Shown: positions 37-16,834 of the stretch, piece after piece
How the letters are laid out: the number at the start of each line of letters is the position of its first letter
How positions within the stretch are numbered: position 1 is the first letter of the stretch
Assembly (NCBI GenBank): GCA_937872325.1
Contig: CALMSN010000126.1
Span: forward strand, 1-45,283
Reading direction: 5' to 3'
DNA: 45,283 nucleotides
From: an uncultured Xanthobacter sp.
GTDB lineage: Bacteria > Pseudomonadota > Alphaproteobacteria > Rhizobiales > Xanthobacteraceae
The notes under the pieces: generated by a model
The model's input: only the letters and a program-made list of their open reading frames with translations
The model's database searches: none
What the model was told of the DNA's origin: nothing
Translations under genes and position numbers: made by a program

Positions 37-106
37 CTCGAACGCTCCCGGTTCGGGAGCTTGAATCACCACAAGCCCAATAACGCAAATTTATGGGGAC
101 ACTGCC
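1..106 (-). mobile_element. End of an insertion sequence
   Basis: The 5' leader of the transposase fragment runs to about 106. The segment at 91-106, read on the minus strand as GGCAGTGTCCCCATAA, looks like an IS terminal repeat. It is followed at 106-109 by CTAG, a plausible short target sequence. The other end lies outside the window, so neither the terminal inverted repeat nor the target duplication can be confirmed. The exact boundary is a guess within a few bases. Confidence 0.35.
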
Positions 107-117
107 TAGCACGATCT

Positions 118-145
118 CTACCCACCGATAGGTGTCGGTAGGTAG
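118..145. repeat. Imperfect 13-bp inverted repeat
   Basis: Bases 118-130 and 133-145 form a 13-bp palindrome with two mismatches and a 2-bp centre (CTACC-ACCGA on the left, TCGGT-GGTAG on the right). It lies in the gap between the IS end and the island att site, with no coding region nearby. With a two-base loop it is more likely a protein-binding site than an RNA hairpin, but nothing shows what would bind it. Confidence 0.45.
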
Positions 146-222
146 GAGATGGATTATTTATTTTTCTCAGTAGGTTAGATCGCGCTTGGGCGTATTTTCG
201 GATGCCCTCGGATGGGCCAAAA

Positions 223-237
223 TCATTCCCACTCGAT
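223..237. other. Distal attachment site (att) of the guaA-integrated island
   Basis: TCATTCCCACTCGAT matches the last 15 bases of guaA at 15287-15301 (TCATTCCCACTCAAT) at 14 of 15 positions and in the same orientation. Read on the minus strand it encodes a GuaA-like tail (IIEWE plus stop) with no guaA upstream of it, as expected for the remote att copy left after integration into the guaA 3' end. Integration of islands at the 3' end of guaA is a known pattern. The integrase gene and the arm-type motifs near both ends support the assignment. Confidence 0.65.
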
Positions 238-299
238 GATTGACCGGAGTGATAAGTATTTGAATTTTCGATAAGTGTAAAACGGTGAAATCGACAGTT

Positions 300-318
300 G
301 CCGTCAGATATACCGTCA
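300..318 (+). repeat. Integrase arm-type motifs, left end
   Basis: Two copies of the motif lie here: GCCGTCA at 300-306 and TACCGTCA at 311-318. The same 8-mer occurs five times near the integrase at 15019-15171. Clusters of a short motif at both ends of an element, inside the att cores, are what arm-binding sites of a tyrosine integrase look like. The assignment is by pattern only. Confidence 0.5.
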
Positions 319-555
319 TATTCATAAGCAATTGATTTCCCACAATAAATGTGGCGCAGTGCGCGACATCAATCTGTACGCTTGCATTATATACGAAGTG
401 CGAGAGAAATAGCTAGAGCCAATCGCAAAAGCTCGCGATTGACTGCGATAGATAACGATACCGTGTGCGCGCTCCTCGCTGCTCTGCAGGCTACGCATTC
501 GATGCACTCCAGCCCTCACCGGGCTTCCAACGCTCATCTCTTTCAGCAGGCTCGA

Positions 556-1401
556 TCAGGGGAAGCAGAAATCCGGCGAGGTCGGACACGACGGCAGCCA
601 GCTCCGTCGGCGCCGAGGCCATTCGCTCTCGCCCCAGAAAGCCCCTCCACTGTCGCCCCCAAGCTTCGACGTAAGCATCGCTGGGACCGATCGGTTCTCG
701 GTAGGAAGCATGGTCTCGCGGCGCGCAAAGGTCTGGCGAACAGCCTCTGCAAGCGATACCCGATCAAATTCGAACGTCTGCGCGATCAGCCAGAGATCGT
801 AGAAATCCTTCAGCCGGCTGTTCGCAATACCGAGCTGGACGAGCGCCTGGAATTTCTCGGCAACCACCGTCGTCACCGGATAAGCGCGCAGGCGGGGTGC
901 TGGCGCGTCGAGCAGTGGCGGATACACGATCTCGACGGGTCCCGGCGTGACGGCATCACCAAAGCCGATGTCGACCTGGATCGGAACGCGGGCGCCGGCG
1001 ATCGTCGCGGAGGTGCGCACGCGGATGCCGCCGTATTCAACGTCTTCCCGGATCGGAACAGCCGTGATCGCTCCGATATCGAACTCCACGCCATCATCAT
1101 CGACCGGTTGCCCGCAGATCTCGCGAAAGACCCCGCCGATCGCGTCCGGGCTGTTCTCGCCATAGCCGAGGAAATCGAGATCGCGTGTCGGCCGAAACGG
1201 GTCTTCCACCCAGGTCACGAACAACATCGCCCCTTTCAGAACGAAGCGGTCGCGATGGGGTGATTGGCTCAGCCGGTAAAGAAGCCGCTCCAGCGCATAG
1301 CGCGTCAGCAGAATCTGAAAATCCGTGCGTTCGACGCGAGACCGGCCGAGCAGACGAGCCCGGACCGAAGCGCCGACGTTTTTCCGGGGTTCACGCGCCA
1401 T
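556..1401 (-). CDS. AbiEii/AbiGii-type nucleotidyltransferase toxin (C-terminus frameshifted)
   Basis: This is the toxin half of an AbiE type IV toxin-antitoxin/abortive infection pair. It carries the nucleotidyltransferase signature: KGAMLF, then TRDLDFLG with the paired acidic residues, then the helical motif VVAEKFQALV and a KDFYDLW segment. The start at 1401 overlaps the end of the antitoxin gene by 11 bases, so the two are probably translationally coupled; the longer upstream start would add seven unlikely residues. After about residue 245 the reading frame loses family similarity and stops at 556. In another frame the sequence continues as a normal AbiEii tail (QWRGFL...ELAAVVSDLAGFLL...) to a stop at 491-493. 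The shift lies at the run of five C (plus strand) near 656-660. It is either a real loss of the C-terminus or a homopolymer error. Confidence 0.8.
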   Translation of the reverse strand: MAREPRKNVGASVRARLLGRSRVERTDFQILLTRYALERLLYRLSQSPHRDRFVLKGAMLFVTWVEDPFRPTRDLDFLGYGENSPDAIGGVFREICGQPVDDDGVEFDIGAITAVPIREDVEYGGIRVRTSATIAGARVPIQVDIGFGDAVTPGPVEIVYPPLLDAPAPRLRAYPVTTVVAEKFQALVQLGIANSRLKDFYDLWLIAQTFEFDRVSLAEAVRQTFARRETMLPTENRSVPAMLTSKLGGDSGGAFWGESEWPRRRRSWLPSCPTSPDFCFP

Positions 1402-2002
1402 CGGACACCATCGCCTCCACATAGGGTTTCATGGCCGTCCAGACCTTGCCCTTCGTTCCGTAGGTCCAGAGCTGGTCGCTGGTGACTTTCCGCCGTCGCA
1501 GCCCCTCACGCAGACCTTCCAGGGCAACATCCAGTCCGACCTTCGCCCGATAACGAAAGCAATCGACGATCGTCCGCGCCGGGTTTGTGATCGCCACCTC
1601 GACGCCATCAATGGAATGCCGCTCGACACCTTGCGCCAGCGCGGGACCAGTGAAGCGCACGAAGCGAATGGGTGGATAGTCGATCTTGGGACGCCAGGCG
1701 GTGCGATCGATGGCCATCCAAACGGCGGATGGCATGTGCAGAGTCAGCTCATGGAATTGCAGCGCCGAGATCACGCAGATGACGCCTTTGGGCACGAGCG
1801 CCGACGCTTCGGCAAGGACGCGAGCGGCATCGCCTGAACTATCCGCAAGCTGATAGAGACCGCGAGCGGGACGAATGACCTCCCCGTCCCGGACGAGCCG
1901 TGCCAGGGTTTCGGGCGCGATGCCATGAGCGGCGAAGTCCTTCAGCCGCATCATCGGGCACGTTTTCAGCAGCTTGAGCGCTTGAGCGCGTTGAGAATCC
2001 AT
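1391..2002 (-). CDS. AbiEi-type antitoxin / transcriptional autorepressor
   Basis: The protein starts with a winged-helix region (residues about 1-65: ALKLLKTCPMMRLKDFAAHG, then GLYQL), followed by the antitoxin core with NPARTIVDCFRYRAKVGLDVALEGL, typical of AbiEi family antitoxins. AbiEi represses its own promoter by binding an inverted repeat, and one is present immediately upstream (2013-2062). I chose the ATG at 2002 because the product then starts as family members do and the operator stays outside the gene; a TTG at 2041 in the same frame would place the start inside the operator. The gene ends within the toxin gene start, giving the usual antitoxin-then-toxin order. Confidence 0.82.
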   Translation of the reverse strand: MDSQRAQALKLLKTCPMMRLKDFAAHGIAPETLARLVRDGEVIRPARGLYQLADSSGDAARVLAEASALVPKGVICVISALQFHELTLHMPSAVWMAIDRTAWRPKIDYPPIRFVRFTGPALAQGVERHSIDGVEVAITNPARTIVDCFRYRAKVGLDVALEGLREGLRRRKVTSDQLWTYGTKGKVWTAMKPYVEAMVSDGA

Positions 2003-2012
2003 GGCGGTAGCG

Positions 2013-2062
2013 ATGTGATATTTCCTCGGCAAATTTTGCAAGTAGCAGAGGTTTTATCACAT
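2013..2062. promoter_or_regulatory. Inverted-repeat operator of the AbiE operon
   Basis: Two 15-base arms (2013-2027 and 2048-2062) are inverted copies: ATGTGATA-N3-CCTC on one side and GAGG-N3-TATCACAT on the other, with the three central bases mismatched and a 20-base spacer. It sits 10-60 bases upstream of the antitoxin start, where AbiEi proteins are known to bind inverted repeats and shut off their own operon. The identity of the binder is inferred from the family; the symmetry is visible in the sequence. Confidence 0.6.
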
Positions 2063-2166
2063 TTCTGAGGAGGAGGAAACCAGGATGACGGGTCCGATGT
2101 CGGCCGGTCGAAGGTGGCCCTGTTCGACTTGGAAGGCCCAAAAAGCAGAGTTCCGGTACGCTATTG

Positions 2167-2895
2167 CTACCTAAGCGCTGCCTCCAGCGCCTCCTTTCGC
2201 TCCTCCCAATCGGGCATCACCGTCTCAAGTAACGCACGCCATCCATCACCATGATCGGGGTAGAACGCATGCGCCAGCTCATGACAGATGACGTAATCGA
2301 TCAGCCGCGGGCTCGCTCTCACCAAGTCAATATTTAATACGACACGTCCACTTGGCGTATAGCTGCCCCACCTCTTTGCCATCGGACGAATGACGAGTGA
2401 AGGCCGCCTCAATCCTTTACGAACAAACGGCTCCAAGACGATGTCGAACCGTTGCCGGAGCACCTCACGCGCTCTCAGTCGATAAAATGCCTGAAGCAGA
2501 CGCCTGCAATGTGGTTGGTCGTCCGGGGCTCTGGCCGCTATCACCATACGGCCACCATCGATCCGCACATGAGGGTCTTCTGATTCCTCGACCGAGAGCC
2601 GATACTGCCGACCAAGCAGAAGATGGGTCTCCCCCGAAATGTACCGACGCTCCGGCGTAACCTTCGGTCTTTGGGCAATGGTATCGATCTGAGCGAATAT
2701 CCAAGCGCCTTTCCGGTGCGCCCTGGTTCGGATCTCTTCAATGCCCTCGCCAACCGGGGCAAAAACAGTCACCTCTCCCGTCGGGCGAACATCGATGCGC
2801 AGTGCCCGCCTCACCGTGCGGGTCAACTCCGCAGTGACCCTGCGCTCTCCCCAACATATCTCGATTTGCTCGGCTGTCGGCAAGGCCATGGCCAT
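2167..2895 (-). CDS. YgjP/SprT-like zinc metallopeptidase (DUF45/M48 type)
   Basis: The C-terminal half holds the zinc-binding signature HELAHAFYPDHGDGW, preceded by RPMAKRWGSYTPSGRVVLN, the hallmark of the YgjP family. The N-terminal half is the family's beta-rich part. Such genes are regularly found next to type I restriction genes, and here it directly follows hsdR: the start overlaps or abuts the hsdR stop at 2898 (a GTG at 2901 would overlap it as GTGA; ATG at 2895 and 2889 are alternatives). Its role in restriction systems is not established. It is full length at about 242 residues, although its partner hsdR is truncated, so it may no longer be meaningfully expressed. Confidence 0.85.
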   Translation of the reverse strand: MAMALPTAEQIEICWGERRVTAELTRTVRRALRIDVRPTGEVTVFAPVGEGIEEIRTRAHRKGAWIFAQIDTIAQRPKVTPERRYISGETHLLLGRQYRLSVEESEDPHVRIDGGRMVIAARAPDDQPHCRRLLQAFYRLRAREVLRQRFDIVLEPFVRKGLRRPSLVIRPMAKRWGSYTPSGRVVLNIDLVRASPRLIDYVICHELAHAFYPDHGDGWRALLETVMPDWEERKEALEAALR

Positions 2896-2897
2896 CC

Positions 2898-4720
2898 TCA
2901 CTGAGCCAGCCGCACGCGTGCCGATGCCAGAACATCATCGACGATACCATCAAGAACACTGGGGTCGATCAGAACGCTCCGTTCTCCCCGCAGTTCCTCG
3001 AAAAAGAAATCGTCGATATCGTTTCGAATGGCGTTCTCCACATCGCGGTCATACTGCCAGCCGACTTTGCGCCGACGCTGGATGATCTGACTGATCTGCA
3101 GAGCAATATCGGCAGCCAAGCCTGGATCATTCATGCCGGCCTTATCTAGGTTGCGCTTGGTCAATCCCCAGAACGCCTGGGCATGGCTGTCATCCCGAAG
3201 GCAGGCTGGCGTCGGATCGGCTTCGTCCTGCCGCGTAAGCACCTTGTCCCGCAACGCCTTGATCTTCGAAAGATAGGTCAGGTCGCCGATCCGCCCTTTG
3301 TGGAAGTCTGCAATTGTGTCGCGCACAAGTTTTGAGAATTTCTCGAAGAAGATTGGATCTTCATCCCACTTCTCTTCAATCGATCGGGTCAATTGGTGTG
3401 CGATCGTATCCGCTACCGAAGCGTCGCTTTCGGTCTTTTCCTGCCGCCGCTCTTCAATCGCTATGTCGTCGAATATATTCAACGGCTCAACCAACGTTAC
3501 GACATCGCGTGCGATGACGTGGCGATCCAGCAACTGACGAATGCGCTTCTCGTAGTCACGCCAATCAACGCGCTCGGCATAACGAAGCGTGACTGCGGCA
3601 CGCAGAGAGACGAACCGCCCGAGATCATCCTTCCAGCGCTTCAGCAGTTCCGGCTTCGTCGTCTCGATAAAGGCCGGAGAGGCAAGCGCCACCGTGAAAG
3701 CCCGAGAAAACGCCGAAAGGCGCTCATAGAACTCGGCTCTGATCTCTTCATCCGCGAGAAGACGCGCATAGGCTTCCGCATCGAAGGTGTTCGAAACGGA
3801 TTTGAACACGTCGAGCAGAGCGGCGTGCGCGCCCGGCACCTTGTTCGCCTCTTCCCGAATAGCCAGGACACTGCTGGCGATGTCCTCCGGACTAAAGCCT
3901 TGCAATGCATCGTAGCTCGCAAGCGCATCTCCGAGGTCTTTCAGGACGCCCGTATAGTCGATGATGAAGCCAAAGGGCTTCTCCGGCGCCCCCTCCTCGT
4001 CGAACACCCGATTGACGCGGGCGATGGCCTGCAAAAGTCCATGCTCCCGCAACCGGCGGGCCACATAGAGCACCGTGTTGCGCGGCGCGTCGAAGCCCGT
4101 CAGAAGCTTATCGACGACAATGATGATGTCGGGGTCGCCGGGGCCTTTGAACTGCTCGACGATGGTTCTGTTATAGGCTTCCTCGCCCCCATACCGCTCC
4201 ATCATCTTGCGCCAGAAGGTGCGCACGAGATCGTCGTCAGCCTCGTCGACCTCGTCTTCGCTTTCGCGCATTTCCGGCGCGGAGATCACCACTTCCGTGG
4301 TGACGACACCAAAGTCATCGAAGAGCTTCTTGAGCTGGATGGCGGCCCGTTTCGAGGGCGCCGCAAGCTGCCCCTTTAGCCCGGTCCCCTTGAAATTGGC
4401 GGAAAAATGCTGACCAACATCGAAGGCGATCGACTGAAGTCTGGAATCCACGCCTTCGATCTCACGGGCGCGGCTCATCTTGCGCTTCAGGTCGGTGCGT
4501 TGGTCGTCGGTAAGACCGCGCGTGTGGACCTCGAACCAACGGTCGATCTGGGCGTCATCAACATCGGTGACGACTTCCCGCCCTTCATAGAGAAGTGGGA
4601 CGACAGCCTTGTCATCAACGGCATCTCGCATCGAGTAGGCGGGCTGAACCAGCTCGCAAAACTTGGCGAACGTGCTCTTCTCCTTCTTGGCGATCGGTGT
4701 GCCTGTGAATCCGGCGCTTG
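2898..4720 (-). pseudogene. hsdR: Type I restriction endonuclease subunit R (HsdR), 3' part only
   Basis: From about 4720 downward the minus strand encodes the second half of an HsdR motor subunit. It opens at helicase motif III (GFTGTPI), goes on with KAVVPLLYEGR, then IIIVVDKLLTGFDAPRNTVL (motif V region) and AIARVNRVF (motif VI), and ends with the HsdR C-terminal helical region. The N-terminal nuclease domain and helicase motifs I and II are missing. The open frame continues to 5066, but those extra roughly 115 residues are not HsdR-like and are read through a DUF4357 fragment and antisense to alpA. No hsdM or hsdS is present. The fragment is too incomplete to restrict DNA. Confidence 0.8.
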
Positions 4721-4920
4721 CGCCAGTCGCCATAGCTCTGGCCCGTGGTGGCGTGTTTCCAATAACGGTTGCCGCTGACATTGCCGCCATAGACGGTGCC
4801 GGCCGCGCCCGAGGGAGAGTCGAAGGCGGTGTCAGCCGTAAAGCGCAGGAACTTTCCATCCCCATCGGCCACCAAGACACCATCGGCAATAAGCTGCGCG
4901 CGTCGGCGCTTCGCGGACAC
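4720..4920 (-). pseudogene. DUF4357-domain fragment
   Basis: Reading minus from 4920 gives KRRRAQLIADGVL, then DSPSGAAGTVYGG and YWKHATTGQSYGDW, which is a DUF4357 domain (a small C-terminal domain seen on several DNA-modifying and GIY-YIG-type proteins). It has no upstream body: at about 4915 it abuts an alpA fragment on the opposite strand. After the DW at about 4722 it abuts the hsdR remnant in a different frame. It is therefore a roughly 200-base piece trapped between two recombination joints. The parent gene cannot be told. Confidence 0.55.
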
Positions 4921-5128
4921 GACGATCTACGAGATGGAACAGCGCGGTGAATTCCCCAAGCGCTTCTTCCTGACGCCGCGCTGCGTGGTATGGGATCTGG
5001 TGGAGGTCGAGATCTGGCTCGTTGAACGACGCCGCGCGTCAGAGGCGGGCACGGTGAGTAAAGCACCAGCGCCGGATGTCAGCCAACGGCGCGCACGACC
5101 GGTCAGGCTCCCAATTCAGCGCCGGTGA
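4915..5128 (+). pseudogene. AlpA-family (MerR-like) excisionase/regulator fragment
   Basis: From about 4916 the plus strand reads TTIYEMEQRGEFPKR, then the typical PRCVVWDLVEVEIWL and a basic tail ending at 5128. AlpA proteins are small winged-helix regulators found in P4-like islands, where they control integrase or excision. The first helix and the start codon (about 15-20 residues) are missing; upstream bases belong to the DUF4357 fragment on the other strand. The open frame that runs back to 4796 is chance. Loss of alpA may mean the island can no longer excise efficiently, which is inference. Confidence 0.6.
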
Positions 5129-5570
5129 ACGGAGCCATAATTTCCTGCCGATCATTCAGCGAAAAGGGGCCGATCGGATCGAGGTTGAGCAGGTGCCAAA
5201 ATAGGTCTTGGTCGGCGCTTTGATTGCGGACGTTCGGCTTTACGCGGCATTGCAGTCGTTAAACGCCCGATGTCCCATTATCGAAACCGGACCTTCATAA
5301 ATTACAGCATGTCGTGCGCTGGTCGACATTAGCGGGCTTTGGCCGATGCCCATCTCCGTAGGCCCTGTGGTCGGGATTGACAGCAAAGCCACCCCTGTCC
5401 GCGCTATAGGACATAATACTAATTGTTGCACACCACACTCAGAGCGAGTTGAATTAACAGAAAGGTCACTGCCGTAAACCACTGATTTATTTGACTTTCT
5501 ATGCCACCTACTACGAGTTCTCGGCACGAGAGACTCAACCGCAGACACGCGTGTTTTTTTTGATCGGCGT
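5129..5570. other. Non-coding gap between the recombination scar and the sigma-like operon
   Basis: No convincing gene is present. On the minus strand a short stretch ending at about 5107 reads DLFWHLLNLDPIGPFSL without a start and with a stop not far upstream; it could be the remnant of another gene. The rest (5250-5570) is of mixed composition, with a T run near 5553-5561 (eight T). The promoter-like element for the next operon starts at 5571. Confidence 0.4.
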
Positions 5571-5614
5571 GGTTCCGGGTTAAGGTTCCTCCCGGAATTA
5601 GGGGCGCAGAGGCG
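5571..5614 (+). promoter_or_regulatory. Shared cis element upstream of the sigma-like operon (copy 1)
   Basis: The element is GGTTCCGG (5571-5578), 14 variable bases, CGGAATTAG (5593-5601), 4 bases, then GCAGAGGCG (5606-5614). A second copy with identical internal spacing lies at 10551-10594 before the ubiquitin-like gene, and both are exactly 93 bases upstream of their start codons. It can be read as a promoter with a -35-like GGTTCC and a -10-like GAATTA 18 bases apart, or as an operator, because TTCCG and CGGAA are inverted. Which protein uses it is not shown; the sigma-like product of the downstream gene is the obvious candidate. Confidence 0.6.
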
Positions 5615-5663
5615 GGCCAGACGTGGACGCCCGAACACCACTGTTGCGCGCGCGAGGCGGTAA

Positions 5664-6449
5664 ATGGCGAGACCACTGAACAAAAAATTGGACGAAGGCG
5701 GTTTTTATACCCGCCGCCCCGAAATTGAGGCCTGCATCGACGAGGCACTGAAGCAGAACACGGAAACGGTGCTTCGACGCGCGGCGATCCGGAATGTCCG
5801 TGATCCCGACTACATGCCTATGGAGTGCTTGCTGCACCTCATGCGTGAGGCTCGTCTCGGCAAAGACAAGTCGATGGAAGGCAAGCTCTACGTCCTTTTC
5901 ATGCCGCGCTGCGAAGCGCGGCTGAAGCGAGCCATACCGGATGGTAGCCGGACGGATGCCGCCGACCTCCGCGATGAGGTGATGTTCAAATTTAATGTGA
6001 TGTTCGCTCGCGTCGGCACCAATGAAGACGCCACAGCGCTCGACTATTACGAGGTCAGTTTCAACCAGGCATTCCAGTTTCTCTGGTGGAAGCAGGTTCG
6101 CAAAGACAACGCGCGCAATAAGATCCTCGTCGATATCGGCCAGGAAAAAGATGAGGACGGCAGACCGCTTGACGAAGAAAACACTCTCGCGAAGCTCTCG
6201 GAGGCTGCGCGCAGTCCTGCGCAGCAGGACAACGTCGTCTATCTCGCGCAGGTTGGAAAATTTCTCGCGACGTTATCTCCTGCCGACCGGGAGACCATCA
6301 GACTGGTCCTGATCGAAGGCCACACGATCGAATCGGATGATCCGGACGAAGTCACCGCTGCTAAGATTCTTGGCGTGGGCCGCCGGGCCATCAACAAGCG
6401 GCTCGCCAAGGTGGCTGCCGCACTGAAAAAGTTCCAGCAGGAGAGCTGA
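5664..6449 (+). CDS. Sigma-factor-like protein
   Basis: A 261-residue protein whose layout matches a sigma70-family factor. Residues about 75-155 look like region 2: RLKRAIPDGSRTDAADLRDE, then aromatic and basic helices with FLWWKQVRKDNARNKI. Residues about 190-258 form a region-4 helix-turn-helix: FLATLSPADRE, then TAAKILGVGRRAINKRLAKV. Similarity to known sigma groups is weak, and the linker (residues 155-190) is acidic. An RBS (GAGGCGG) precedes the ATG. It opens an operon with the next two genes (2- and 7-base gaps). The operon has a cis element identical in design to the one before the ubiquitin-like cassette, so it could direct transcription of both units. It might instead be a DNA-binding regulator that is not a true sigma factor. 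Confidence 0.65.
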   Translation: MARPLNKKLDEGGFYTRRPEIEACIDEALKQNTETVLRRAAIRNVRDPDYMPMECLLHLMREARLGKDKSMEGKLYVLFMPRCEARLKRAIPDGSRTDAADLRDEVMFKFNVMFARVGTNEDATALDYYEVSFNQAFQFLWWKQVRKDNARNKILVDIGQEKDEDGRPLDEENTLAKLSEAARSPAQQDNVVYLAQVGKFLATLSPADRETIRLVLIEGHTIESDDPDEVTAAKILGVGRRAINKRLAKVAAALKKFQQES

Positions 6450-6451
6450 AC

Positions 6452-7108
6452 ATGACGACCATCAACACGAAAGACGAGAGCGATGTGCTGTACGCGCTCG
6501 CGCTCGCCATGCCCACCCCGGATCCAAAGACGCTGGACGAGTTTGTTCGAAAGCATCCGCAGCACGCCGCAGCCCTGACCGAGTTTGCCGTTGAGCTTGC
6601 CCTTAACCCGCAATCCATCGGCGACGAGGAAGGCGATGAGAGTGTCGGTGGAGCCGTCAGCCCGGCGGTCTCGCGCGCGATCAGCCACTTTCAGAACATT
6701 TCATTCGAGTTGGAGCAGAAAGGTCTGCCTGGCGACTTGGAGAAGAAAGGGTTGCCTGAAGCACCGAAATCGTTCGGCAATCCATTTGCGTCTTTAAGCA
6801 CCGAAGGCTTTCGAGCATATGCGGCTAAGCTTGGCGCCAACTCGATTTTCGTGATGAAGCTCCGGGACGGCAGGATCGAGCCCGAAAGCATTTATGCGCG
6901 TCCTGGCTTTTGCAAGGTCGCAGCCGACGGCCTCGACATCCCTGTTGAGGTGCTGATGGCGCATGTCCGCTCCGGACCAACGGTGAGCGCGCAGCAACTG
7001 CATAAATCCGACAGCAAGCCCGTCGCTGACAAACGCGAAACCTTTGAAGAAGCGGTCCGCAGTTCGGGACTGACACCCCAACAGCAGCAGCGCCTTTTGG
7101 AAATGTGA
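6452..7108 (+). CDS. Unrecognised 218-residue protein, possible regulator/antagonist in the IrrE operon
   Basis: No known family is recognised with confidence. Residues about 28-50 form a helix (LDEFVRKHPQHAAALTEFAV) and residues 105-165 contain LGANSIFVMKLRDGRIEP followed by LDIPVEVLMAHV. This second part resembles a module seen in regulators paired with ImmA/IrrE proteases, where the protease cleaves the partner. A charged linker (EEGDE) and a disordered middle separate the two. The gene lies 2 bases after the sigma-like gene and 7 bases before the IrrE-helicase gene, with a strong RBS (GGAGAG). A role as an anti-sigma or repressor that is cleaved by the IrrE domain is a hypothesis from this position, not something the sequence proves. 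Confidence 0.6.
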   Translation: MTTINTKDESDVLYALALAMPTPDPKTLDEFVRKHPQHAAALTEFAVELALNPQSIGDEEGDESVGGAVSPAVSRAISHFQNISFELEQKGLPGDLEKKGLPEAPKSFGNPFASLSTEGFRAYAAKLGANSIFVMKLRDGRIEPESIYARPGFCKVAADGLDIPVEVLMAHVRSGPTVSAQQLHKSDSKPVADKRETFEEAVRSSGLTPQQQQRLLEM

Positions 7109-7115
7109 GACGCAC

Positions 7116-10100
7116 GTGGACGCCTTCGAAACCATACGGATCACTGCCGCAGGGCTGCACGACCAATTCGTGGCAGGCGGAGCCGACGCGCTCAAACCGC
7201 TGACGCTCATCGACGCTGCGATCAAGCATTATGGTATCGAGCTGGCATTCCTCGAACCGGGCAACACGGCCCTCAATGGCGGCCGGGCCGTATTCGACCA
7301 GCAGAGCCGCACCATCTGCGCGGAAAACAAAGGATCGGACGCGGATCGCGCTCTTCTTGTAGGCCATGAGATCGGCCACGTGGCTGTTCACACGATGTCG
7401 AGCTGTTGCAGCGCCAGCGATATCGATCCGTCGCGCTCGACCGAATCCGCGCCTGTGGGCCTGCAAAAGGTGGAGGATTACGGCGCACGCGAGCGGCGCG
7501 AACTCGAAGCGAACGTGTTCGCCCGCGAGTTCCTGTTCCCGCGTCACCTCGCGCGAAAGATGCACGTCGATCAGGTGATGTCGGCGGCGGATATCGCGGC
7601 GGCCACCGGCTTACCGGTGCCGCTCGTGCGGCAACAAATCCTAGATGCTCTGCTCCTGCCGAAGATCGAGCCGTCCGCCAGCAAGCCAAAGCCGATTTTC
7701 ATAGAGGACCCAGCCCAAGAAGACGCAGCCCGACATCGCGATAAGCCCTACTTGCTGCGAGCGGGGCCTGGGACGGGCAAAACGCGAACGCTTGTCCGAC
7801 GGATCGAAACGCTGATCGCGGACCATGTCGATCCGCCCTCCATGCTCGTGCTGACCTTCTCGAATCGTACAGCCGGCGAACTGTCGGAACGCCTGTCCAA
7901 GGCCATCGGGCAGGATGCAGCCCAGATGTGGGTCGGCACTTTCCACGGTTTCGGCCTCGATCTCGTCAGGCGGTTTCACGAAAAGCTCGAACTGCCGCCA
8001 GACCCCACGCTCTTCGATCGCAGCGATGCAATCTCGGTATTGGAGCAGATCCTTCCAACCCTGCCACTCAGCCACTATCGCAATCTGTGGGACCCGGTCG
8101 TTGTGTTGCGCGAGATTCTGCAAGCCATTTCGCGCGCCAAGGACGAAGTCGTAACGCCTCTCGAATACCGGCGCCTCGCTGAAGCCATGACGAAAGGCGC
8201 TGATCCATCGGATGAGAAGGCCGTCGATCTCGCCGCGAAATGCCTAGAGATCGCATCCGTTTACGAGCTTTACGAAGATGCAAAGCGCAGCCGTGGTGCG
8301 GTCGATTTCGGCGACCTTATCATGCTGCCGGCCTTGCTCATCGAGCGGGACGAGGCAGTGCGCAATGCGGTGCGTATGCGTCACAGGCATTTGCTCGTCG
8401 ACGAATACCAGGACGTTAATCGCGCCAGCGTCCGGCTGGTGAAGGCGGTCGCTGGTGCTGGCGAAAACCTCTGGGCCGTCGGCGACGCTCGCCAGTCCAT
8501 CTATCGCTTCCGGGGTGCGTCGTCCGCCAACATGGCATCGTTCGGCGCCGACTTTCCCGGTGCGCAACTCGGTCAGTTGGGCCTGAGCTACCGGTCGACG
8601 CAGAAGGTATTGGATACATTCAGCGGCTTTTCTGCCGGCATGCCGTTGCCGCAGGAGCTCGCAAATCTGCCACTCAAGGCCGAGCGCGGCCCCGGCGAGG
8701 CGAAACCTGAGTTTCGCACGCTCCTCGATCCGGCTGAGGAGGCTGCCGGCATCGCCGCGAGTGTCCGGGAATTGGAGACGGGCGGTATCGCCCTTCATGA
8801 TCAGGCTATCCTTTGCCGCACGAACGACAGACTGAACGAGATTGCGCAGGCACTCGAAGACCGCGGCATTCCCGTTCTCCATCTCGGCAGCCTGTTCGAG
8901 CGTGAGGAAGTGCGGGATGTGCTCAGCATCCTCAGCCTCGCAGCCGACCGGTTCGGTGCGGGCCTCGTGCGCATCGCCGGCATGGAGCGCTATGCGATCC
9001 CGGCGCAGGATGTGAAACGGCTGCTCGTCCATCTGCAAGGTGGGAATAGGCCAGCCATCCTCCGCCTGGATGAACTGCCGTCGGTTGCCGACCTGTCGCC
9101 TGCCGGCGTGCAAGGCGTCACCAGACTCGCGAACGACCTGCAGGGCGTGAAGGCCTCGGCTTCGCCCTGGGACATGGCGACAACCTTCCTCCTCGATCGC
9201 ACCGATTTGGTCCGCCGGATGGCGTCCGGCACGTGCATCGGCGACCGCATGCGGGCCATCGCCGTCTGGCAGTTGCTCAACTTCCTGCGGGATCAGAGCC
9301 CTGTGGCGACGGGTTCACCCGTGCAAACGCTGCTCGATCGTGTCCGCAACCTCGTTCTGCTGGCAGAGGAACGGGATTTGCGGCAGGTGCCCGACGCAGC
9401 TTTGCAGATGAACGCTGTCCGGCTTATGACCGTCCATGGCAGCAAAGGTCTTGAATTCGAAGCGGTTCACATTCCCGGCTTCGTAAAGACAGGCATTCCC
9501 GCAAGCTACCGTGGCCTGTCGTGCCCCGTACCGGAGGGCATGATCGAAGGTGCGGTCGGCACCGTCTCGCAAGAGGCCGAGCGTGCCCATAAGCAGGAGC
9601 AGGAATGTCTGTTCTTCGTGGCGATGTCACGGGCGCGAACCTATTTGCACCTCTACAGCTACCGGCAGCAGCCGAACGGCGCGACGCGTAATCCGTCCGA
9701 CTATATGGCGCGGATCGCCGGCAGTTTGCGGTCGATCGCGTCCCCGTCCACGATCTATCTGCCGCCCCGTCCTCCACGGCGTATAGAGATCACCATCGCG
9801 GATGAGTGGGAGCGCACGCACAGACACGTGTCAGCTTACGAGAGCTGCCCGCTTCGCTTCTTCTATACGCATGTCCTGGGCATCGGCACGGCACGGCGCA
9901 CCACGCCGTTCGAGCGCACGCACGCCTGCATCTACGAGTTCATCGACTGGCTGGCGGAAGAGCGCGTCAACGCACCGCCCGATCTGAACGCCGCACAAGA
10001 AGCGTTTGACGCAATCTGGAAAGACAAAGCTCCGCACGACAGCCCATATGTTGTCGACTATCACAAGCTGGCCAGCAGCATCGTTGCCGGCCTGATCAAG

Positions 10101-10532
10101 GCCGGTGCTGGTCGTCGCTTCAGGGAAGCGTCGCCACTCGCCATCAATTACCGCAATGGCAAGGTGATGGTGATCCCCGACGAAATCGCGGAGCGGCACG
10201 ATGGTGTGATCGTCGTGCGCAAAGTGCGTACCGGCAAGCGGGGCAAGACCGAGTTCGGCAAGTTGGAGTATTCACTTTATCAGCGCGCGGCCACGCAGCA
10301 TTTTGGTGCTCGGGCCATTGTCGAGGCCGTGCATCCGAGCGATAGCGGTGTCGAAGACGTGCCGCCGCCGAAGGCGACGAAAGCTGGCAATAACGACACG
10401 AAGGTCGAAGAGATCCTCGCAGGTATTGCTGGAGGGCATTTCCCTCCCGATCCCGATGCCTTTCGCTGCCCACGCTGCCCCCACTTCTTTATATGCGCGT
10501 CGGCACCGGAAGGTCCTCTCGCCATCGCATAG
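7116..10532 (+). CDS. ImmA/IrrE metalloprotease - UvrD/Rep helicase - AddB-like Fe-S nuclease fusion
   Basis: A 1138-residue three-part protein starting at GTG. Residues 1-185 are an ImmA/IrrE protease with HEIGH at 84-88 and a downstream ERRELEANVFA helix supplying the third zinc ligand. Residues about 205-860 are a superfamily 1A helicase: Walker A AGPGTGKT (216-223), TFSNRTAGELSERL, GTFHGFG, DEYQD (429-433), GDARQSIYRFRGA, SYRSTQ, TVHGSKGLEFEAV and FVAMSRAR near 837. The C-terminal region (about 895-1138) is like the RecB/AddB nuclease, with cysteines 911, 1118, 1121 and 1127 in the C-xn-C-x2-C-x5-C pattern of AddB iron-sulfur clusters. The expected acid-x-lysine of the nuclease site is replaced by RKVRTGK, so cleavage may be lost. 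It could sense abnormal DNA and signal through proteolysis. Confidence 0.85.
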   Translation: MDAFETIRITAAGLHDQFVAGGADALKPLTLIDAAIKHYGIELAFLEPGNTALNGGRAVFDQQSRTICAENKGSDADRALLVGHEIGHVAVHTMSSCCSASDIDPSRSTESAPVGLQKVEDYGARERRELEANVFAREFLFPRHLARKMHVDQVMSAADIAAATGLPVPLVRQQILDALLLPKIEPSASKPKPIFIEDPAQEDAARHRDKPYLLRAGPGTGKTRTLVRRIETLIADHVDPPSMLVLTFSNRTAGELSERLSKAIGQDAAQMWVGTFHGFGLDLVRRFHEKLELPPDPTLFDRSDAISVLEQILPTLPLSHYRNLWDPVVVLREILQAISRAKDEVVTPLEYRRLAEAMTKGADPSDEKAVDLAAKCLEIASVYELYEDAKRSRGAVDFGDLIMLPALLIERDEAVRNAVRMRHRHLLVDEYQDVNRASVRLVKAVAGAGENLWAVGDARQSIYRFRGASSANMASFGADFPGAQLGQLGLSYRSTQKVLDTFSGFSAGMPLPQELANLPLKAERGPGEAKPEFRTLLDPAEEAAGIAASVRELETGGIALHDQAILCRTNDRLNEIAQALEDRGIPVLHLGSLFEREEVRDVLSILSLAADRFGAGLVRIAGMERYAIPAQDVKRLLVHLQGGNRPAILRLDELPSVADLSPAGVQGVTRLANDLQGVKASASPWDMATTFLLDRTDLVRRMASGTCIGDRMRAIAVWQLLNFLRDQSPVATGSPVQTLLDRVRNLVLLAEERDLRQVPDAALQMNAVRLMTVHGSKGLEFEAVHIPGFVKTGIPASYRGLSCPVPEGMIEGAVGTVSQEAERAHKQEQECLFFVAMSRARTYLHLYSYRQQPNGATRNPSDYMARIAGSLRSIASPSTIYLPPRPPRRIEITIADEWERTHRHVSAYESCPLRFFYTHVLGIGTARRTTPFERTHACIYEFIDWLAEERVNAPPDLNAAQEAFDAIWKDKAPHDSPYVVDYHKLASSIVAGLIKAGAGRRFREASPLAINYRNGKVMVIPDEIAERHDGVIVVRKVRTGKRGKTEFGKLEYSLYQRAATQHFGARAIVEAVHPSDSGVEDVPPPKATKAGNNDTKVEEILAGIAGGHFPPDPDAFRCPRCPHFFICASAPEGPLAIA

Positions 10533-10550
10533 ATTCTTTTTCCCCAACCC

Positions 10551-10594
10551 GGTTCCGGTTTTGCCCGTGACTCGGAATTAGCCCGGCAGAAGCG
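10551..10594 (+). promoter_or_regulatory. Shared cis element upstream of the ubiquitin-like cassette (copy 2)
   Basis: GGTTCCGG (10551-10558), 14 variable bases, CGGAATTAG (10573-10581), 4 bases, GCAGAAGCG (10586-10594). It matches the copy at 5571-5614 at every fixed position except one A/G, with the same internal spacing and the same 93-base distance to the start codon (10644). Only 3 of the 14 spacer bases agree, so the blocks look functional rather than recently duplicated. It lies in the 111-base gap after the helicase fusion gene, making the Ubl-E2-JAB-E1 cassette a second transcription unit under the same control. Confidence 0.6.
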
Positions 10595-10643
10595 ACAGGA
10601 ACGGCAATCGGGCCCGCCCTCTCGCAAACGAAAGGGTTGGGAC

Positions 10644-12101
<1,458 letters not shown>

Positions 12102-12109
12102 GGATTGAG

Positions 12110-13495
12110 ATGATCACTTTTACCCCTGCCGACGAGATGCATAGGCTCGCCAAGCGAGCCATGGACAATGGCACGGTCGCAAGCCGCCAAGAGGCCGAGG
12201 CTCTGCTGCGCGGCTACCGGATCGCCTTGTCCATAGGACCGGACGAGGCGATCGATCGTCATCATCAGGCCGCGCTGCTGACCGCAGTGGAGCTAGGCCG
12301 GCGCGTCTTTCTCGGCGGCGTAACCGTCGAGGGCGACCTTGATGTGCCGCTGAACGTTCCGGTGTCCCCCGGCCCGACGCTCCGACACGCCGTCGCGGCC
12401 GCAGGCGGTACGCCAGGGGCAGCGACCGCAGGCATCCCGCACATCTCGATCGGCGGTCTGGTCAAGCAAAAGTCAGATGGCTTCTCGATCAGGGCGGTAT
12501 TCGATGGCTGGCGCGGCGGGATCGTGCCCGGTCACGCTGAAGGTCCCGATCGCGGCGAGATCGGCCCGATGGCTTTGGCGCCGATGCTCGCCGCCGCATT
12601 GGCGATCAACGAAGCATTCCTCCATCTTTCGGGCGACAATCCCTTCGCCGGAAAGCGAACCGCCGGACTCAATCTCTGGAACCTGTCGCGGTCGACCGAC
12701 TGGATGTCGTGCGACGCGAGCACGCCGGAGCTCTCCTATCTTCCATCCCGCCTCTGGCTCATCGGCCTCGGACATCTCGGCCAGGCCTATCTCTGGGGAC
12801 TCGGGCTTTTGCCATACTCGGCCGACGCGAAAGTGGAATTGCTCCTCCAGGACGTCGATGTGATCACCCCCTCGACCGAAAGCACCTCAATCCTCTCGAA
12901 CCGCACGATGCTTGGCGAACAGAAGACGCGCGTTACCGCCAAATGGGCGGAACGGCGAGGATTCGCCACCGCCATCACCGAGCGACTGTTCGATGAAACC
13001 TGCCTCCGTCACCACAATGAACCGTCGATCGCGTTGTGCGGCCTCGACAATGCCGTAGGACGACGCGCGCTTGACCTGGTCGGTTTCGACTTCGTGGTCG
13101 AAGCCGGACTGGGGCGCGGGCATCAAGATTTCCGCAGCCTTCTGATTCACACGCTGCCCGGCGAAATGTCGGCGAACACACTATGGAAAGACGAAGATGA
13201 AGGCAGCCAAACGGCAGTCGATGCGGCGGCCTATCGCAAGATGCTCGACGAGGGCTCCCTCGACCGTTGCGGCGTGACCTTGCTGGCAGGCAAGGCGGTT
13301 GGAGCTCCGTTCGTGGGTGCGGTTGCTGCGACGCTCGTGCTCGCAGAGGTGTTGCGCCTCCTGCACGGTGGCGCCCTGCACAGGCTGGTCGATATGAACC
13401 TGGTCGACCTCGCGTACGTTCGAGCTGTGCCTCAGCTGCGCGACTTTTCGGCGTTCAACCCTGGCTTCATCACGGCAGAAGGTAGGCGCTCTTGA
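12110..13495 (+). CDS. E1-like ubiquitin-activating enzyme (ThiF/MoeB family)
   Basis: A 461-residue E1-like protein. The N-terminal part (about 1-205) has no nucleotide motif and fits the inactive or accessory domain of bacterial E1 proteins. The C-terminal part is the adenylating Rossmann domain: IGLGHLG (218-224), the acidic QDVDVI (247-252), Arg265 in SNRT as the arginine finger, Lys272, and the Mg-binding Asp313 in CGLDNAVGRR. Cys387 in LDRCGVTLLAGKAVGAPFVG is the best candidate for the thioester cysteine. It follows the protease gene by 8 bases with a GAGG ribosome site, and is the last gene of the cassette. It would adenylate the trimmed Ubl glycine and load it on the E2. Confidence 0.82.
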   Translation: MITFTPADEMHRLAKRAMDNGTVASRQEAEALLRGYRIALSIGPDEAIDRHHQAALLTAVELGRRVFLGGVTVEGDLDVPLNVPVSPGPTLRHAVAAAGGTPGAATAGIPHISIGGLVKQKSDGFSIRAVFDGWRGGIVPGHAEGPDRGEIGPMALAPMLAAALAINEAFLHLSGDNPFAGKRTAGLNLWNLSRSTDWMSCDASTPELSYLPSRLWLIGLGHLGQAYLWGLGLLPYSADAKVELLLQDVDVITPSTESTSILSNRTMLGEQKTRVTAKWAERRGFATAITERLFDETCLRHHNEPSIALCGLDNAVGRRALDLVGFDFVVEAGLGRGHQDFRSLLIHTLPGEMSANTLWKDEDEGSQTAVDAAAYRKMLDEGSLDRCGVTLLAGKAVGAPFVGAVAATLVLAEVLRLLHGGALHRLVDMNLVDLAYVRAVPQLRDFSAFNPGFITAEGRRS

Positions 13496-13713
13496 TTAGG
13501 GAAGCGGACCGTCCGGTCTTTCTCTACAGTCGCTCCAAAGTGGTCAATCAGTTTCCGGCCCATCCCTGACGTAACAGTCTAGCGGAGGAAACGCCAAAAA
13601 GCCGGGCGCTCCGAACTTTGCCCGATTCTCCACTGCCGCCCGCACTCTCTGCCAATCCAAAATTGAATACCGCCTAGTCGCATGGCTCATGCATGGAGCG
13701 CGACGGCTCACAG

Positions 13714-14970
13714 TCAGCCTTCCCCTCGACCGGCCATAAACGCCATCGTCGGCGGCAGGAGTGTCGGCGCCCGCTTCTCTCCGCTCACCCAGGCATCGAT
13801 CATGTCGGCCCATTCCTGGAGCATGTGGCGGCGCTGCGGCTCGTATTCCGCCTTGTTGTAGACGCCGCGCGATGAGCGCCCGTCTTCGTGGGCCAGGCAC
13901 TTCTCGATCCAGTCGCTGTTGAACCCAATCTCGTTCAACAGCGTCGAGCCGGTCCGACGCAGGTCGTGGACCGTGAACGGCTCCAGAGACAGTCCTTCCT
14001 TCTTCGCCCGCGCCACGACCGCCGTGGTCACACGATTGAAGGTCGCCCGCGACATGGGGGCATCGGCGTCATAGCGGGACGGCAGCAGGAAGCGCGAATT
14101 GCCGGCGCAGGTCTTCAGGGCGATGAGGATATCGAGCGACTGTTGCGACAGATAGACGTTGTGCGCCTTCGATCGCTTCATCCGCTCCTTTGGAATGGTC
14201 CAGACGGCGTTCTCGAAGTCGACCTCGTCCCAGACCGCGTCCTGCAGCTCGCTCTTGCGCACCATGGTGAGCAGGATCAGACGCAAGCCAAGACGGATCG
14301 TCGGCAGCGTCGGCACATGCTCGATCTGCTGCAGCATGATCTTGATCTCGGCCGGCGACAGCGCCCGGTCCTTCGGCTGGAAGGTCGCGATCGAGGCTGG
14401 CCCCACCTCGTCGGCCGGGTTCGGCACCTTCTCGCCATGCAGGATGGCGAAGGCGAAGATCTGTTTGACGATGTCGCGGGCGTGGATGGCGGTCGCCGGC
14501 GCGCCGCGCTCCTTCACCTTGGCGCAGAGCTGGCGCAGATCATCCGGCGTCACCTCGGTCAGAAGGCGGTTCTTCCAGGCGGGGAGAATGTCGCGATCGA
14601 GGATCGCCTTGCGCATGGAGCGGGTGCTTTCCGCCATCCGCGCTTCCTTGATCCATAAGGCGCTCACCGCACCGAAGCTGCGCTCCATGGCCTTGCGCCG
14701 TTTGTCGCGCTGTTTCTCGTGCGCGGGAGAAAGCCCCTCCGCCACGTGCTTGCGGGCCGCGATGCAGCGCTCGCGGGCTTCGGCGAGCGTGAGGCCCTCG
14801 GCGCCATAACGGCCGATCGTCAGCGTCTCCCGGCGACCGTTCAAACGGTAGTCGTACCGGAAGGTGATTTGGCCTGTCGTGGCGACGGAAACGTACATAC
14901 CGTCACGGTCGGCCACCTTGTATAATTTATCCTTTGGTTTCAGCCTATTGATGGCCATGTCGGTGAGCAT
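13714..14970 (-). CDS. int: P4-type tyrosine integrase
   Basis: The protein has the DUF4102 N-terminal arm-binding domain (INRLKPKDKLYKVADRDGMY), a central SAM-like domain, and the catalytic domain with Arg in TMVRKSELQ, the H-x-L-R-R box (HDLRRTGSTLLNEIG), a later His in LAHE and the nucleophile Tyr in RGVYNKAEY. I chose the ATG at 14970 (MLTDMAINRL) because it has GAGG 8 bases upstream and leaves the TACCGTCA arm motifs at 15019-15041 outside the gene; the open frame extends to 15042. It points away from guaA and lies about 320 bases from the att core, as usual for P4-like islands. All catalytic residues appear present, so it is probably active. Confidence 0.92.
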   Translation of the reverse strand: MLTDMAINRLKPKDKLYKVADRDGMYVSVATTGQITFRYDYRLNGRRETLTIGRYGAEGLTLAEARERCIAARKHVAEGLSPAHEKQRDKRRKAMERSFGAVSALWIKEARMAESTRSMRKAILDRDILPAWKNRLLTEVTPDDLRQLCAKVKERGAPATAIHARDIVKQIFAFAILHGEKVPNPADEVGPASIATFQPKDRALSPAEIKIMLQQIEHVPTLPTIRLGLRLILLTMVRKSELQDAVWDEVDFENAVWTIPKERMKRSKAHNVYLSQQSLDILIALKTCAGNSRFLLPSRYDADAPMSRATFNRVTTAVVARAKKEGLSLEPFTVHDLRRTGSTLLNEIGFNSDWIEKCLAHEDGRSSRGVYNKAEYEPQRRHMLQEWADMIDAWVSGEKRAPTLLPPTMAFMAGRGEG

Positions 14971-15018
14971 GGGAGCAACCTCGTTGACGATCCAAAGCGC
15001 CTTTTCGAGCCACAATTT

Positions 15019-15171
15019 TACCGTCAAATCCGATACCGTCAATCAACGCGAATAATCGTTATAAAACAGTGTAATAACTTGTTTTTCCGTAGCCTGCTTC
15101 CGCTTTCGGCCTGACGGTAGGGCAAAAATCCGGCTGATGGCGAAAAACGCATACCGTCGCGCGCACCGTCA
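15019..15171. repeat. Cluster of integrase arm-type motifs, right end
   Basis: TACCGTCA occurs at 15019-15026 and 15034-15041, inverted as TGACGGTA at 15112-15119, and as one-base variants at 15152-15159 (TACCGTCG) and 15164-15171 (CACCGTCA). The same motif is at 300-318 near the other end. These are probably the arm sites bound by the integrase N-terminal domain; the copies next to the integrase gene may also regulate it. Confidence 0.55.
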
Positions 15172-15257
15172 GGGCCCATCGCTTCAAGGCGATAGGCTCC
15201 GATAGTGAGCACTTGACTTCTTCTTTGATTTCAGTTAGTTATGATGATGTTGCGATA

Positions 15258-15277
15258 GTTCGCGAAACGCCGCGAAC
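15258..15277. repeat. 7-bp inverted repeat next to the guaA att core
   Basis: GTTCGCG and CGCGAAC form a perfect 7-bp stem around a 6-base loop, 9 bases from the guaA stop codon. No T run follows on the guaA strand, so a classical terminator is doubtful. It may help define the integrase crossover region or end guaA transcripts. Confidence 0.4.
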
Positions 15278-15286
15278 CACATCATT

Positions 15287-15301
15287 TCATTCCCACTCAA
15301 T
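15287..15301. other. guaA-proximal attachment site (att)
   Basis: TCATTCCCACTCAAT covers the last five codons and stop of guaA (minus strand: IEWE plus stop). It is a 14 of 15 match to 223-237. As the insertion regenerates the guaA end, the reading frame is complete. Confidence 0.65.
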
Positions 15302-16834
15302 TGTCCCCGGCGGCTTCGATGTCACATCGTAGACCACCCGGTTCACGCCCTTTACCTCGTTGATGATGCGGGTGGCCGCGCGGCCGAGGAAGGCCATGTC
15401 GAAGGGATAGAAATCGGCTGTCATTCCGTCCACCGAGGTCACCGCGCGCAGGGCGAGGACGTGGTCGTAGGTGCGGCCGTCGCCCATCACGCCCACCGTG
15501 CGCACCGGCAGGAGCACCGCGAAGGCTTGCCAGATCACGTCGTAGAGCCCGGCATAGCGGATCTCTTCCAGATAGATCGCATCGGCCGCGCGCAGGATGT
15601 CGAGCTTCTCCCGCGTCACCGCGCCCGGGCAGCGAATGGCAAGGCCGGGGCCGGGGAAGGGGTGGCGGCCGACGAAGCTCTCCGGCAGGCCCAGCTCGCG
15701 GCCGAGCGCGCGCACCTCGTCCTTGAAGAGGTCGCGCAGCGGCTCCACCAGCTTCATGTTCATGCGCTCGGGAAGCCCGCCCACATTGTGGTGGCTCTTG
15801 ATGGTCACCGATGGGCCGCCGGCGAAGGAGACGCTCTCGATCACGTCCGGATAGAGCGTGCCCTGGGCCAGGAAGTCGGCGCCGCCGATCTTCTTTGCCT
15901 CCGCCTCGAACACCTCGATGAACAGCCGGCCGATGGTCTTGCGCTTGAGCTCGGGATCCTCGACCCCGTCGAGCTCCCTCAGGAACAGGTCGGACGCCTC
16001 CACATGCACCAGCGGGATGTTGTAGTGGCCGCGGAACAGGGAGACCACCTCGTCCGCCTCGGCCCGGCGCATCAGGCCGTGGTCGACGAACACGCAGGTG
16101 AGCTGGTCGCCGATGGCCTCGTGGATCAGCACCGCCGCCACCGAGGAATCGACACCGCCGGAGAGGCCGCAGATCACCCGCCCCGTGCCCACCTGGGCGC
16201 GGATGCGCGCGATCGCCCGCTCGCGGAAGGCGCCCATGGTCCAGTTGCCCTCCAGCCCGGCGACCTTGCGGACGAAATTGGAGAGCAGGCGCGCTCCGTC
16301 CGGCGTGTGCACCACCTCGGGATGGAACTGCACGCCGTAATAGCCGCGGGCGACGTCGGCGATGGCGGCGAAGGGGGCGTTCGGCGAGGTGGCCACCACC
16401 TCGAAGCCCTCAGGCAGCGCGGTGACGCGGTCGCCATGGCTCATCCACACGGTGTGGCGCTCGCCCGGCCGCCAGACCCCCTCGAACAGCGGCACGGCCT
16501 TCTCGACAGTCACCTCGGCCCGGCCGAACTCGCGATGGTGCCCGGCCTCCACCGCGCCGCCGAGTTGGGCGGCCATGCACTGCTCGCCGTAGCAGATGCC
16601 CAGCACCGGCACCCCGGCGGCGAAGGCCGCTTCCGGCGCCTTCGGGCTCTGGCCCTCGATCACCGAGGCCGGGCCGCCGGAGAGGATGATGGCGCGGGGC
16701 TTGAGCCGCACCACCGCCTCGGCGGCTTTCTGGAACGGCACCACTTCGGAATACACGCCCTCCTCGCGCACCCGGCGGGCGATGAGCTGGGTCACCTGGC
16801 TGCCGAAGTCGATGATGAGGACGGTATCTTGCAC
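15287..16834 (-). CDS. guaA: GMP synthase (glutamine-hydrolysing)
   Basis: It converts XMP to GMP using glutamine and ATP. The N-terminal class I amidotransferase domain has the nucleophile Cys in GICYGEQ and the His-Pro-Glu of [10 protein letters not shown]. The ATP pyrophosphatase domain has the P-loop SGGVDSSV, and the C-terminal dimerisation domain ends in GTIEWE. I chose the GTG at 16834 ([13 protein letters not shown]), which gives 515 residues, close to the usual length; an in-frame TTG at 16882 would add 16 unlikely residues. GMP synthase is an essential or near-essential housekeeping enzyme, and its 3' end is the island integration site. The gene is intact. Confidence 0.95.

Follow-up and report, generated by a model that had tools for sequence, protein, structure and literature searches.

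Paired promoter-like elements ahead of an ECF-like sigma factor operon and a ubiquitin-like Bil system in an uncultured Xanthobacter

Transcriptional controllers linked to defence operons are known, and CapP, a component of one of them, is an IrrE/ImmA-like peptidase. In the CapH+CapP system, as the available part of PMC13373217 describes it, a protease activated by single-stranded DNA cleaves a repressor; CapW or CapH+CapP is found at 219 of 544 Bub operons, and CapK+CapS, a GHKL kinase with a STAS-wHTH (winged helix-turn-helix) repressor, at others as well as at 5 Bil operons. All three are repressor systems that act by lifting repression, and the sigma-factor mentions in the same available part concern anti-sigma analogies (PMC13373217). 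Here we analyse a 45,283-nt stretch of DNA from an uncultured Xanthobacter sp. (contig CALMSN010000126.1; the whole stretch is called the window), in which a two-block element stands once ahead of an operon for an extracytoplasmic function (ECF)-like sigma factor, a middle protein and an IrrE-helicase protein, and once ahead of a Bil system whose first gene encodes a ubiquitin-like (Ubl) protein. The two sites are quite likely the -35/-10 promoters of one small regulon that would be read by the cassette's own ECF-like sigma factor (5664-6449). The genes of the locus are as follows.

5664..6449, + strand: ECF-like sigma factor, 261 amino acids, region 4 at about residues 185-256 (domain searches, model)
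6452..7108, + strand: middle protein, 218 amino acids, with a weak XRE-like helix-turn-helix centrally (domain and fold searches)
7116..10532, + strand: IrrE-type peptidase with UvrD-like helicase and PD-(D/E)XK nuclease, 1138 amino acids (domain search)
10644..11147, + strand: BilA, ubiquitin-like protein (PADLOC BilA, 1.8e-55)
11144..11632, + strand: BilB, E2-like (PADLOC BilB, 4.1e-61; Pfam DUF7665)
11574..12101, + strand: BilC, JAB-type deubiquitinase-like (PADLOC BilC, 4.5e-65)
12101..13495, + strand: BilD, E1-like, start approximate (PADLOC BilD, 2.7e-168)

The genes downstream of the Ubl-side copy are a type I Bil system, BilABCD, with bilA, bilB, bilC and bilD all present and in order (PADLOC); the open frame of BilD starts at 11846, and the family match at its residue 93. 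Gene number and order are those of the described type I system, the regulatory cassette being outside the published four-gene description as given in the available part of PMC11354881. As in CapH+CapP, a peptidase is encoded beside a putative regulator gene and upstream of an immune operon, operons of that kind including the ubiquitin-like Bub (PMC13373217, available part), but in the cassette the peptidase shares one polypeptide with a UvrD-like helicase and a PD-(D/E)XK nuclease, there is a sigma factor as well, and the cis elements are promoter-like rather than operator-like. Pfam gave no GHKL kinase or STAS match for the window cassette proteins, nor did the families listed for alignments of the sigma and of the middle protein include one, which sets the cassette apart from CapK+CapS; a match to the WYL domain of CapW/BrxR regulators was likewise absent from these proteins and alignments, and the PADLOC capP and capH models matched neither the sigma nor the middle protein and were not among the best 25 of 53 families for the helicase protein. 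Autoregulated ECF sigma/anti-sigma pairs resemble the locus in having a region 4, a small-protein gene right after the sigma gene and a promoter common to the sigma operon and its target; the cassette departs from them in the longer, divergent N-terminal half of its sigma, in a cytosolic peptidase-helicase-nuclease in place of membrane proteases and in the promoter-like copy that many relatives have within the sigma gene, and no transmembrane anti-sigma was identified in it. Our search of the open-licence literature found no sigma-based or sigma/IrrE-helicase controller of Bil or related systems, which does not establish absence from print; relative to the literature found, activation-type logic and an embedded promoter would be what is new in a defence-linked controller.

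A sequence-only reading of the window had proposed a three-block pattern at two places with identical internal spacing, and both copies, at 5571-5614 and 10551-10594 on the forward strand, indeed match it with 0 mismatches.

5571..5578, + strand: -35-like block GGTTCCGG of the sigma-side copy (pattern scan, comparison with relatives)
5593..5601, + strand: -10-like block CGGAATTAG of the sigma-side copy (pattern scan, comparison with relatives)
5606..5614, + strand: third block GCAGAGGCG of the sigma-side copy (not kept in relatives)
10551..10558, + strand: -35-like block GGTTCCGG of the Ubl-side copy (pattern scan, comparison with relatives)
10573..10581, + strand: -10-like block CGGAATTAG of the Ubl-side copy (pattern scan, comparison with relatives)
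10586..10594, + strand: third block GCAGAAGCG of the Ubl-side copy (sequence)

Scanned at up to 3 mismatches, the window gave 2 matches against 0 expected (100 shuffles, none of which matched), and the genome-wide search that had been proposed as a check returned, at the same tolerance in the whole assembly (3,999,702 bases, 93% complete), only these 2 copies, a backwards control pattern giving 0. Block by block (lengths 8, 14, 9, 4 and 9) the two copies are identical at 8/8, 3/14, 9/9, 0/4 and 8/9 positions, which bears out the claim that the 14-base spacer is unconserved; their flanks agree at 37 of 100 positions in the 100 bases upstream and at 15 of 49 in the leader after the element. Because spacer, upstream flank and leader all differ, the copies are not a recent duplication. 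Neither site gave a match to a sigma-70-type promoter. Each copy lies 93 bases ahead of an ATG (5664 and 10644), a constancy that had been read as a mark of the site; it holds in the window but not in relatives, where the distance is ∼85-105 bases before sigma in Bil-type loci, ∼91-93 before BilA and ∼70-81 before multiubiquitin genes. The third block, GCAGARGCG, had to be given up as part of the site, being absent from the sigma-side copy of close relatives; at both copies it is probably the start of the transcript.

With the sigma protein as tblastn query, 16 of 299 related genomes were matched, its own included (3 by short region-4-only matches), and BilA was matched in 5 of 150, again counting its own. 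The sigma, middle and helicase genes stand in order ahead of Bil in G058, G154, G038 and G012 and on two G089 contigs, and a divergent cassette occurs at seven other loci, of which those examined further precede a multiubiquitin-type system. A GTDB genome scan placed the cassette on 76 further contigs that, by their record titles, span Alpha- and Gammaproteobacteria, Burkholderiales, Verrucomicrobia, Acidobacteria, Myxococcus, Planctomyces and others; the 76 loci were drawn with one degenerate peptide pattern and are not exhaustive, they include near-duplicates (e.g. L062-L067), and six loci of the related genomes recur among them (L025=L041, L029=L106, L030=L064, L031=L084, L032=L086, L033=L088). 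By tblastn, BilA is present in 7 of the 76, a multiubiquitin or ubiquitin-E2 relative in 55 and neither in 14; among these 14, L047 and L093 have diverged Ubl genes (Multi_ubiq), L042 ends 208 bases past the helicase match, in nine the end of the helicase gene is missing, and in L082 and L090 no Ubl gene was found next, L082 having an SbcCD-like pair instead. A Ubl system lies downstream in 64 of the 66 loci with a readable downstream side, and the effector types are Bil; multiubiquitin with DUF6791/ThiF and DUF6527; a multiubiquitin-E2 fusion with JAB-ThiF; and separate Ubl, E2 and JAB-ThiF genes.

Across this family the consensus of the element is TTWCCGG-N16-CGAT, the window form GTTCCGG-N14-CGGAATT being the variant of one clade; in alignments of the Bil loci TTCCG and a core of AT.A are invariant on the BilA side, and TTCCGG is on the sigma side. 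At a spacer of 16, 58 of the 76 loci (1.38 Mb) have the consensus on the Ubl side, 56 have it within the sigma gene (e.g. L051 10567-10593) and 7 have it upstream of that gene, while 4 sites lie elsewhere; each of the spacers 10-15 and 17-22 placed it as expected in 0-2 loci and elsewhere at 0-6 sites. The internal position is that of the multiubiquitin clade, where the regulator-side copy falls within the sigma reading frame ∼190 bases before the middle gene. An exact Ubl-side copy is present in 61 of the 76 loci, 3 window-type loci included; of the 15 others, L048, L053, L087, L107 and L110 deviate by one mismatch or by one base in the spacer (L048 by one mismatch plus spacer 15), L090 carries TTGCCGG-N16-CGAT on both sides, and the remaining nine lack the helicase end. 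Searches of 12 other whole genomes with exact or near-exact patterns gave, for the exact pattern in nine, 21 places (16 at the module, 1 at a caspase gene, 4 elsewhere) and, for a near-exact pattern in two, 1 two-mismatch site away from the module. The consensus had already been settled when seven plasmid loci, out of 74 matching records, were obtained; each has an N16 copy 72-91 bases ahead of its Ubl gene and a second copy upstream of or inside the sigma gene, exact in L115, L116, L119 and L120 and with one mismatch per copy in L117, L118 and L121. The background in these loci was 1 exact N16 site and 6 with one mismatch, all at unrelated positions. The proposals that the element is a selected regulatory site and that it joins the sigma-like operon with the Ubl cassette in a single regulon are thereby supported, as paired copies recur with the cassette in other genomes at fixed spacing and orientation and few sites lie off the module.

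The locus holds a directional two-block signal with promoter-like spacing ahead of both units, and its cassette encodes a sigma region 4; from this we infer, in line with what the sequence-only reading had held possible, that the element would be recognized by the cassette sigma. Sigma70_r4_2 was matched by 30 of 34 family members (best 7.2e-10; the window member is not among them), and region 4 of the predicted model fits solved -35-binding domains (3hug_E, TMt 0.79, 1.5 A; 3vfz_A, 0.83, 1.2 A). TIGR02937 spans residues 97-256 of the window protein (E 0.0034, below its cut-off), and its whole-chain Foldseek matches are mostly sigma factors. Public records label the protein variously as sigma-70 family factor, response regulator or hypothetical, and the phage records searched held no relative of it. 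The recognition helix of region 4 differs in the window clade (RAIN in place of RTIR/KTIR, in A1) alongside the clade's variant of the element, a single event in which a link between the two is only suggestive.

The element might instead be an operator for the middle protein, a CapH-like repressor cleaved by IrrE, with the sigma-like protein as an accessory, which we consider unlikely. Such a scheme draws on a real IrrE/ImmA-like metallopeptidase domain (Peptidase_M78, 1.1e-7, 32.1 bits versus a cut-off of 22, with a HEIGH motif in the translation), on weak XRE-like signals in the middle protein (HTH_26 in 2 of 34 members; ClgR at a probability of 0.41, YdaS at 0.54) and on the window element being partly an inverted repeat of 6-8 pairs. 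Yet the sites are strictly oriented (124 forward, 1 reverse); those of the larger clade are asymmetric, with CGATTG on the -10 side, and their spacer of 16 bases is of a length typical for promoters; among 8 sampled sites self-complementarity reached no more than 5-8 pairs; and an operator gives no use for the cassette's sigma factor.

Less probable again, and in our estimate quite improbable, is a promoter that serves a sigma factor or regulator of the host while the cassette sigma has its targets elsewhere. In favour of a host factor, ECF sigma factors are numerous in alphaproteobacteria and the promoter specificity of the cassette sigma is only putative; however, the element accompanies the cassette in different phyla and on plasmids, and both copies co-vary with the cassette, unlike what would be expected for a host factor. 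For example, ATTACCGACG...CGATTAA is found in both copies in Acinetobacter, CGATGTC in both of L112, TTGCCGG in both of the Thermoanaerobaculia locus L090 and GGTTCCGG...CGGAATTAG in both of the window clade. In 26 multiubiquitin-type internal/Ubl pairs the copies differ by 4.00 mismatches as compared to 5.34 when shuffled, with 0 of 20,000 permutations as low, and the same count was obtained for all 31 pairs together (26 plus 5 Bil-type pairs, chosen by hand, near-duplicates and loci without two clear copies being left out). The third letter of the -35 block agrees between copies in 21 of 24 loci (18 AA, 3 TT, 3 mixed; Fisher p 0.0099).

Where the copy lies inside the sigma gene, its codon choice departs strongly from that of the rest of the gene. 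In a synonymous-site test on 31 genes less than 90% identical (of 52), with z obtained by shuffling codons within genes, the internal copy is the top 9-codon window of the whole sigma gene (mean z 8.2 versus a median of 1.9). Its Tyr codon is TAC in 21/21 cases (99/209 elsewhere in the same genes), its Arg codon CGG in 26/30 (207/952 elsewhere) and its Ala codon GCG in 30/31 (294/863 elsewhere), a choice that would be hard to explain by protein conservation alone. That the internal copy is conserved protein sequence only, and the two window sites coincidental intergenic conservation, can appeal to the conserved [YF]R..L..AI motif that the copy encodes at the start of region 4, but this notion, already disfavoured, is scarcely credible with third-position choices so far from the genes' own codon use and a varying codon ahead of the motif whose third base is T in 28 of 31 genes, whatever the residue.

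Several points weigh against promoters read by the cassette's own sigma. The window sigma scores below all curated cut-offs (Sigma70_ECF, E 0.04; Sigma70_r4, 0.052; NCBIfam, 8.6e-7 and 0.0034), its whole-chain TM scores are low with no Foldseek match at E 0.001 or better, and its region 2 is not established. The middle protein lacks a confident family or fold, nothing firm having come from Pfam, NCBIfam, PADLOC, PDB sequence and PDB fold searches, and an anti-sigma role for it is a guess. The window clade has no internal copy; the sigma-side spacer of the close relative G154 (L026) is 13 instead of 14, and both module copies of G089 have a spacer of 17, which is why that genome gave no match to the N16 pattern. 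The five Bil-type pairs go in the same direction as the others without reaching significance (557/6,000), the permutation test behind the counts of 0/20,000 takes no account of relatedness, and the synonymous-site test ignores it as well, the rank within the gene weighing more than the size of the z of 8.2. The plasmid loci are partly dependent, L119 and L121 being close to L059 and L107, and L117 and L118 are both from Acinetobacter, which leaves fewer independent cases.

If the two sites are promoters read by the cassette sigma, the copy at 5571 would drive the sigma/middle/IrrE-helicase operon, a positive autoregulation, and the copy at 10551 would drive BilABCD. By analogy with established biology, the middle protein may hold the sigma inactive, or repress, and the IrrE peptidase with its UvrD-like helicase and nuclease may sense phage or damaged DNA and cleave the middle protein, a step modelled on the CapH+CapP logic in the available part of PMC13373217. 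The freed sigma would then switch on the Ubl defence and its own operon, as a positive-acting analogue of CapH+CapP, and where relatives have their copy within the sigma gene, transcription by the active sigma would cover the middle and helicase genes. Taken as a whole, and only tentatively, the cassette may be a portable, self-contained sigma immune switch in which a DNA-sensing IrrE-helicase-nuclease cleaves an anti-sigma, the ECF-like sigma activates its own operon and the adjacent Ubl system, whether Bil or one of several kinds of multiubiquitin/E1/E2/JAB system, with a neighbouring caspase or SbcCD-like nuclease added in some genomes; in many members a promoter embedded in the sigma gene would also start a transcript from which the -35-binding domain could be made alone, as a built-in brake. 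The question bears on how bacteria keep ubiquitin-like defence off until needed: a dedicated sigma travelling with the system would mean activation-based, portable control with exact promoters, the embedded promoter would be a rare case of a regulatory site within a coding region visible from codon choice alone, and the motif can be used for finding further regulon members.

After the internal copy, a Shine-Dalgarno-like AGGA/AAGG with an in-frame ATG 8 bases on was seen in 19 of 26 multiubiquitin-clade genes (L051 ∼10594-10641 and equivalents), in 0 of 3 Bil-type or Verrucomicrobia genes and in none of the sphingomonad genes. A stand-alone region-4 peptide started there would be speculation.

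In the leaders, RNAalifold gave 6 pairs for 12 Bil leaders and none for 25 multiubiquitin leaders, the stems of which were misaligned by MAFFT. Folded singly, 17 of 21 multiubiquitin leaders (the set being L049 14796-14855 and 20 others) form a hairpin in which the ribosome-binding site pairs with the 5' end of the expected transcript (mean z -2.2), and the stem letters vary by clade. The window leaders are no better than shuffles (z 0.2 and 0.9), those of the other Bil loci are weak, and no RNA switch is claimed for the window.

Further copies of the element were seen beside other genes. In L028 (G012; 2601-2628) and in L044 (8156-8182) a caspase (Peptidase_C14) gene located upstream of the cassette has the element at its start, the L044 site being among the 4 consensus sites elsewhere, and this gene is likely a third regulon member. 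A third copy in G089 (L036 9488-9460, - strand, spacer 17) lies ∼110 bases ahead of an SbcD-like gene, after which comes an SbcC-like gene; unlike in G089, the SbcD gene of G038 (L122) showed no element with the pattern tried, and SbcCD-like genes are also near the cassette in L027, L082 and L093. In L098, a contig without a helicase match, the element occurs at 629 and 2814 as identical 27-base copies ∼2.2 kb apart near a sigma fragment, the second copy being one of the 4 consensus sites elsewhere.

Two genes follow the Bil system in the window.

13714-15042, - strand: integrase (window domain search)
15287-16882, - strand: guaA

With the integrase next to guaA (window 13714-16882), the Bil region is probably an island at guaA; no direct repeats of at least 18 bases, and with them no attachment-site repeats, were found in window positions 1-18500. 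The Bil locus of G038 (L027) has similar neighbours, a GMP-synthase-like frame and an integrase with 79% identity. On the Bradyrhizobium japonicum plasmid L120, a multiubiquitin-type cassette, its sigma nearest that clade, precedes a diverged Bil set, suggesting that effector modules have been exchanged. AbiEi/AbiEii-like genes (3343-5375) immediately precede the cassette of L029, a multiubiquitin-type locus.

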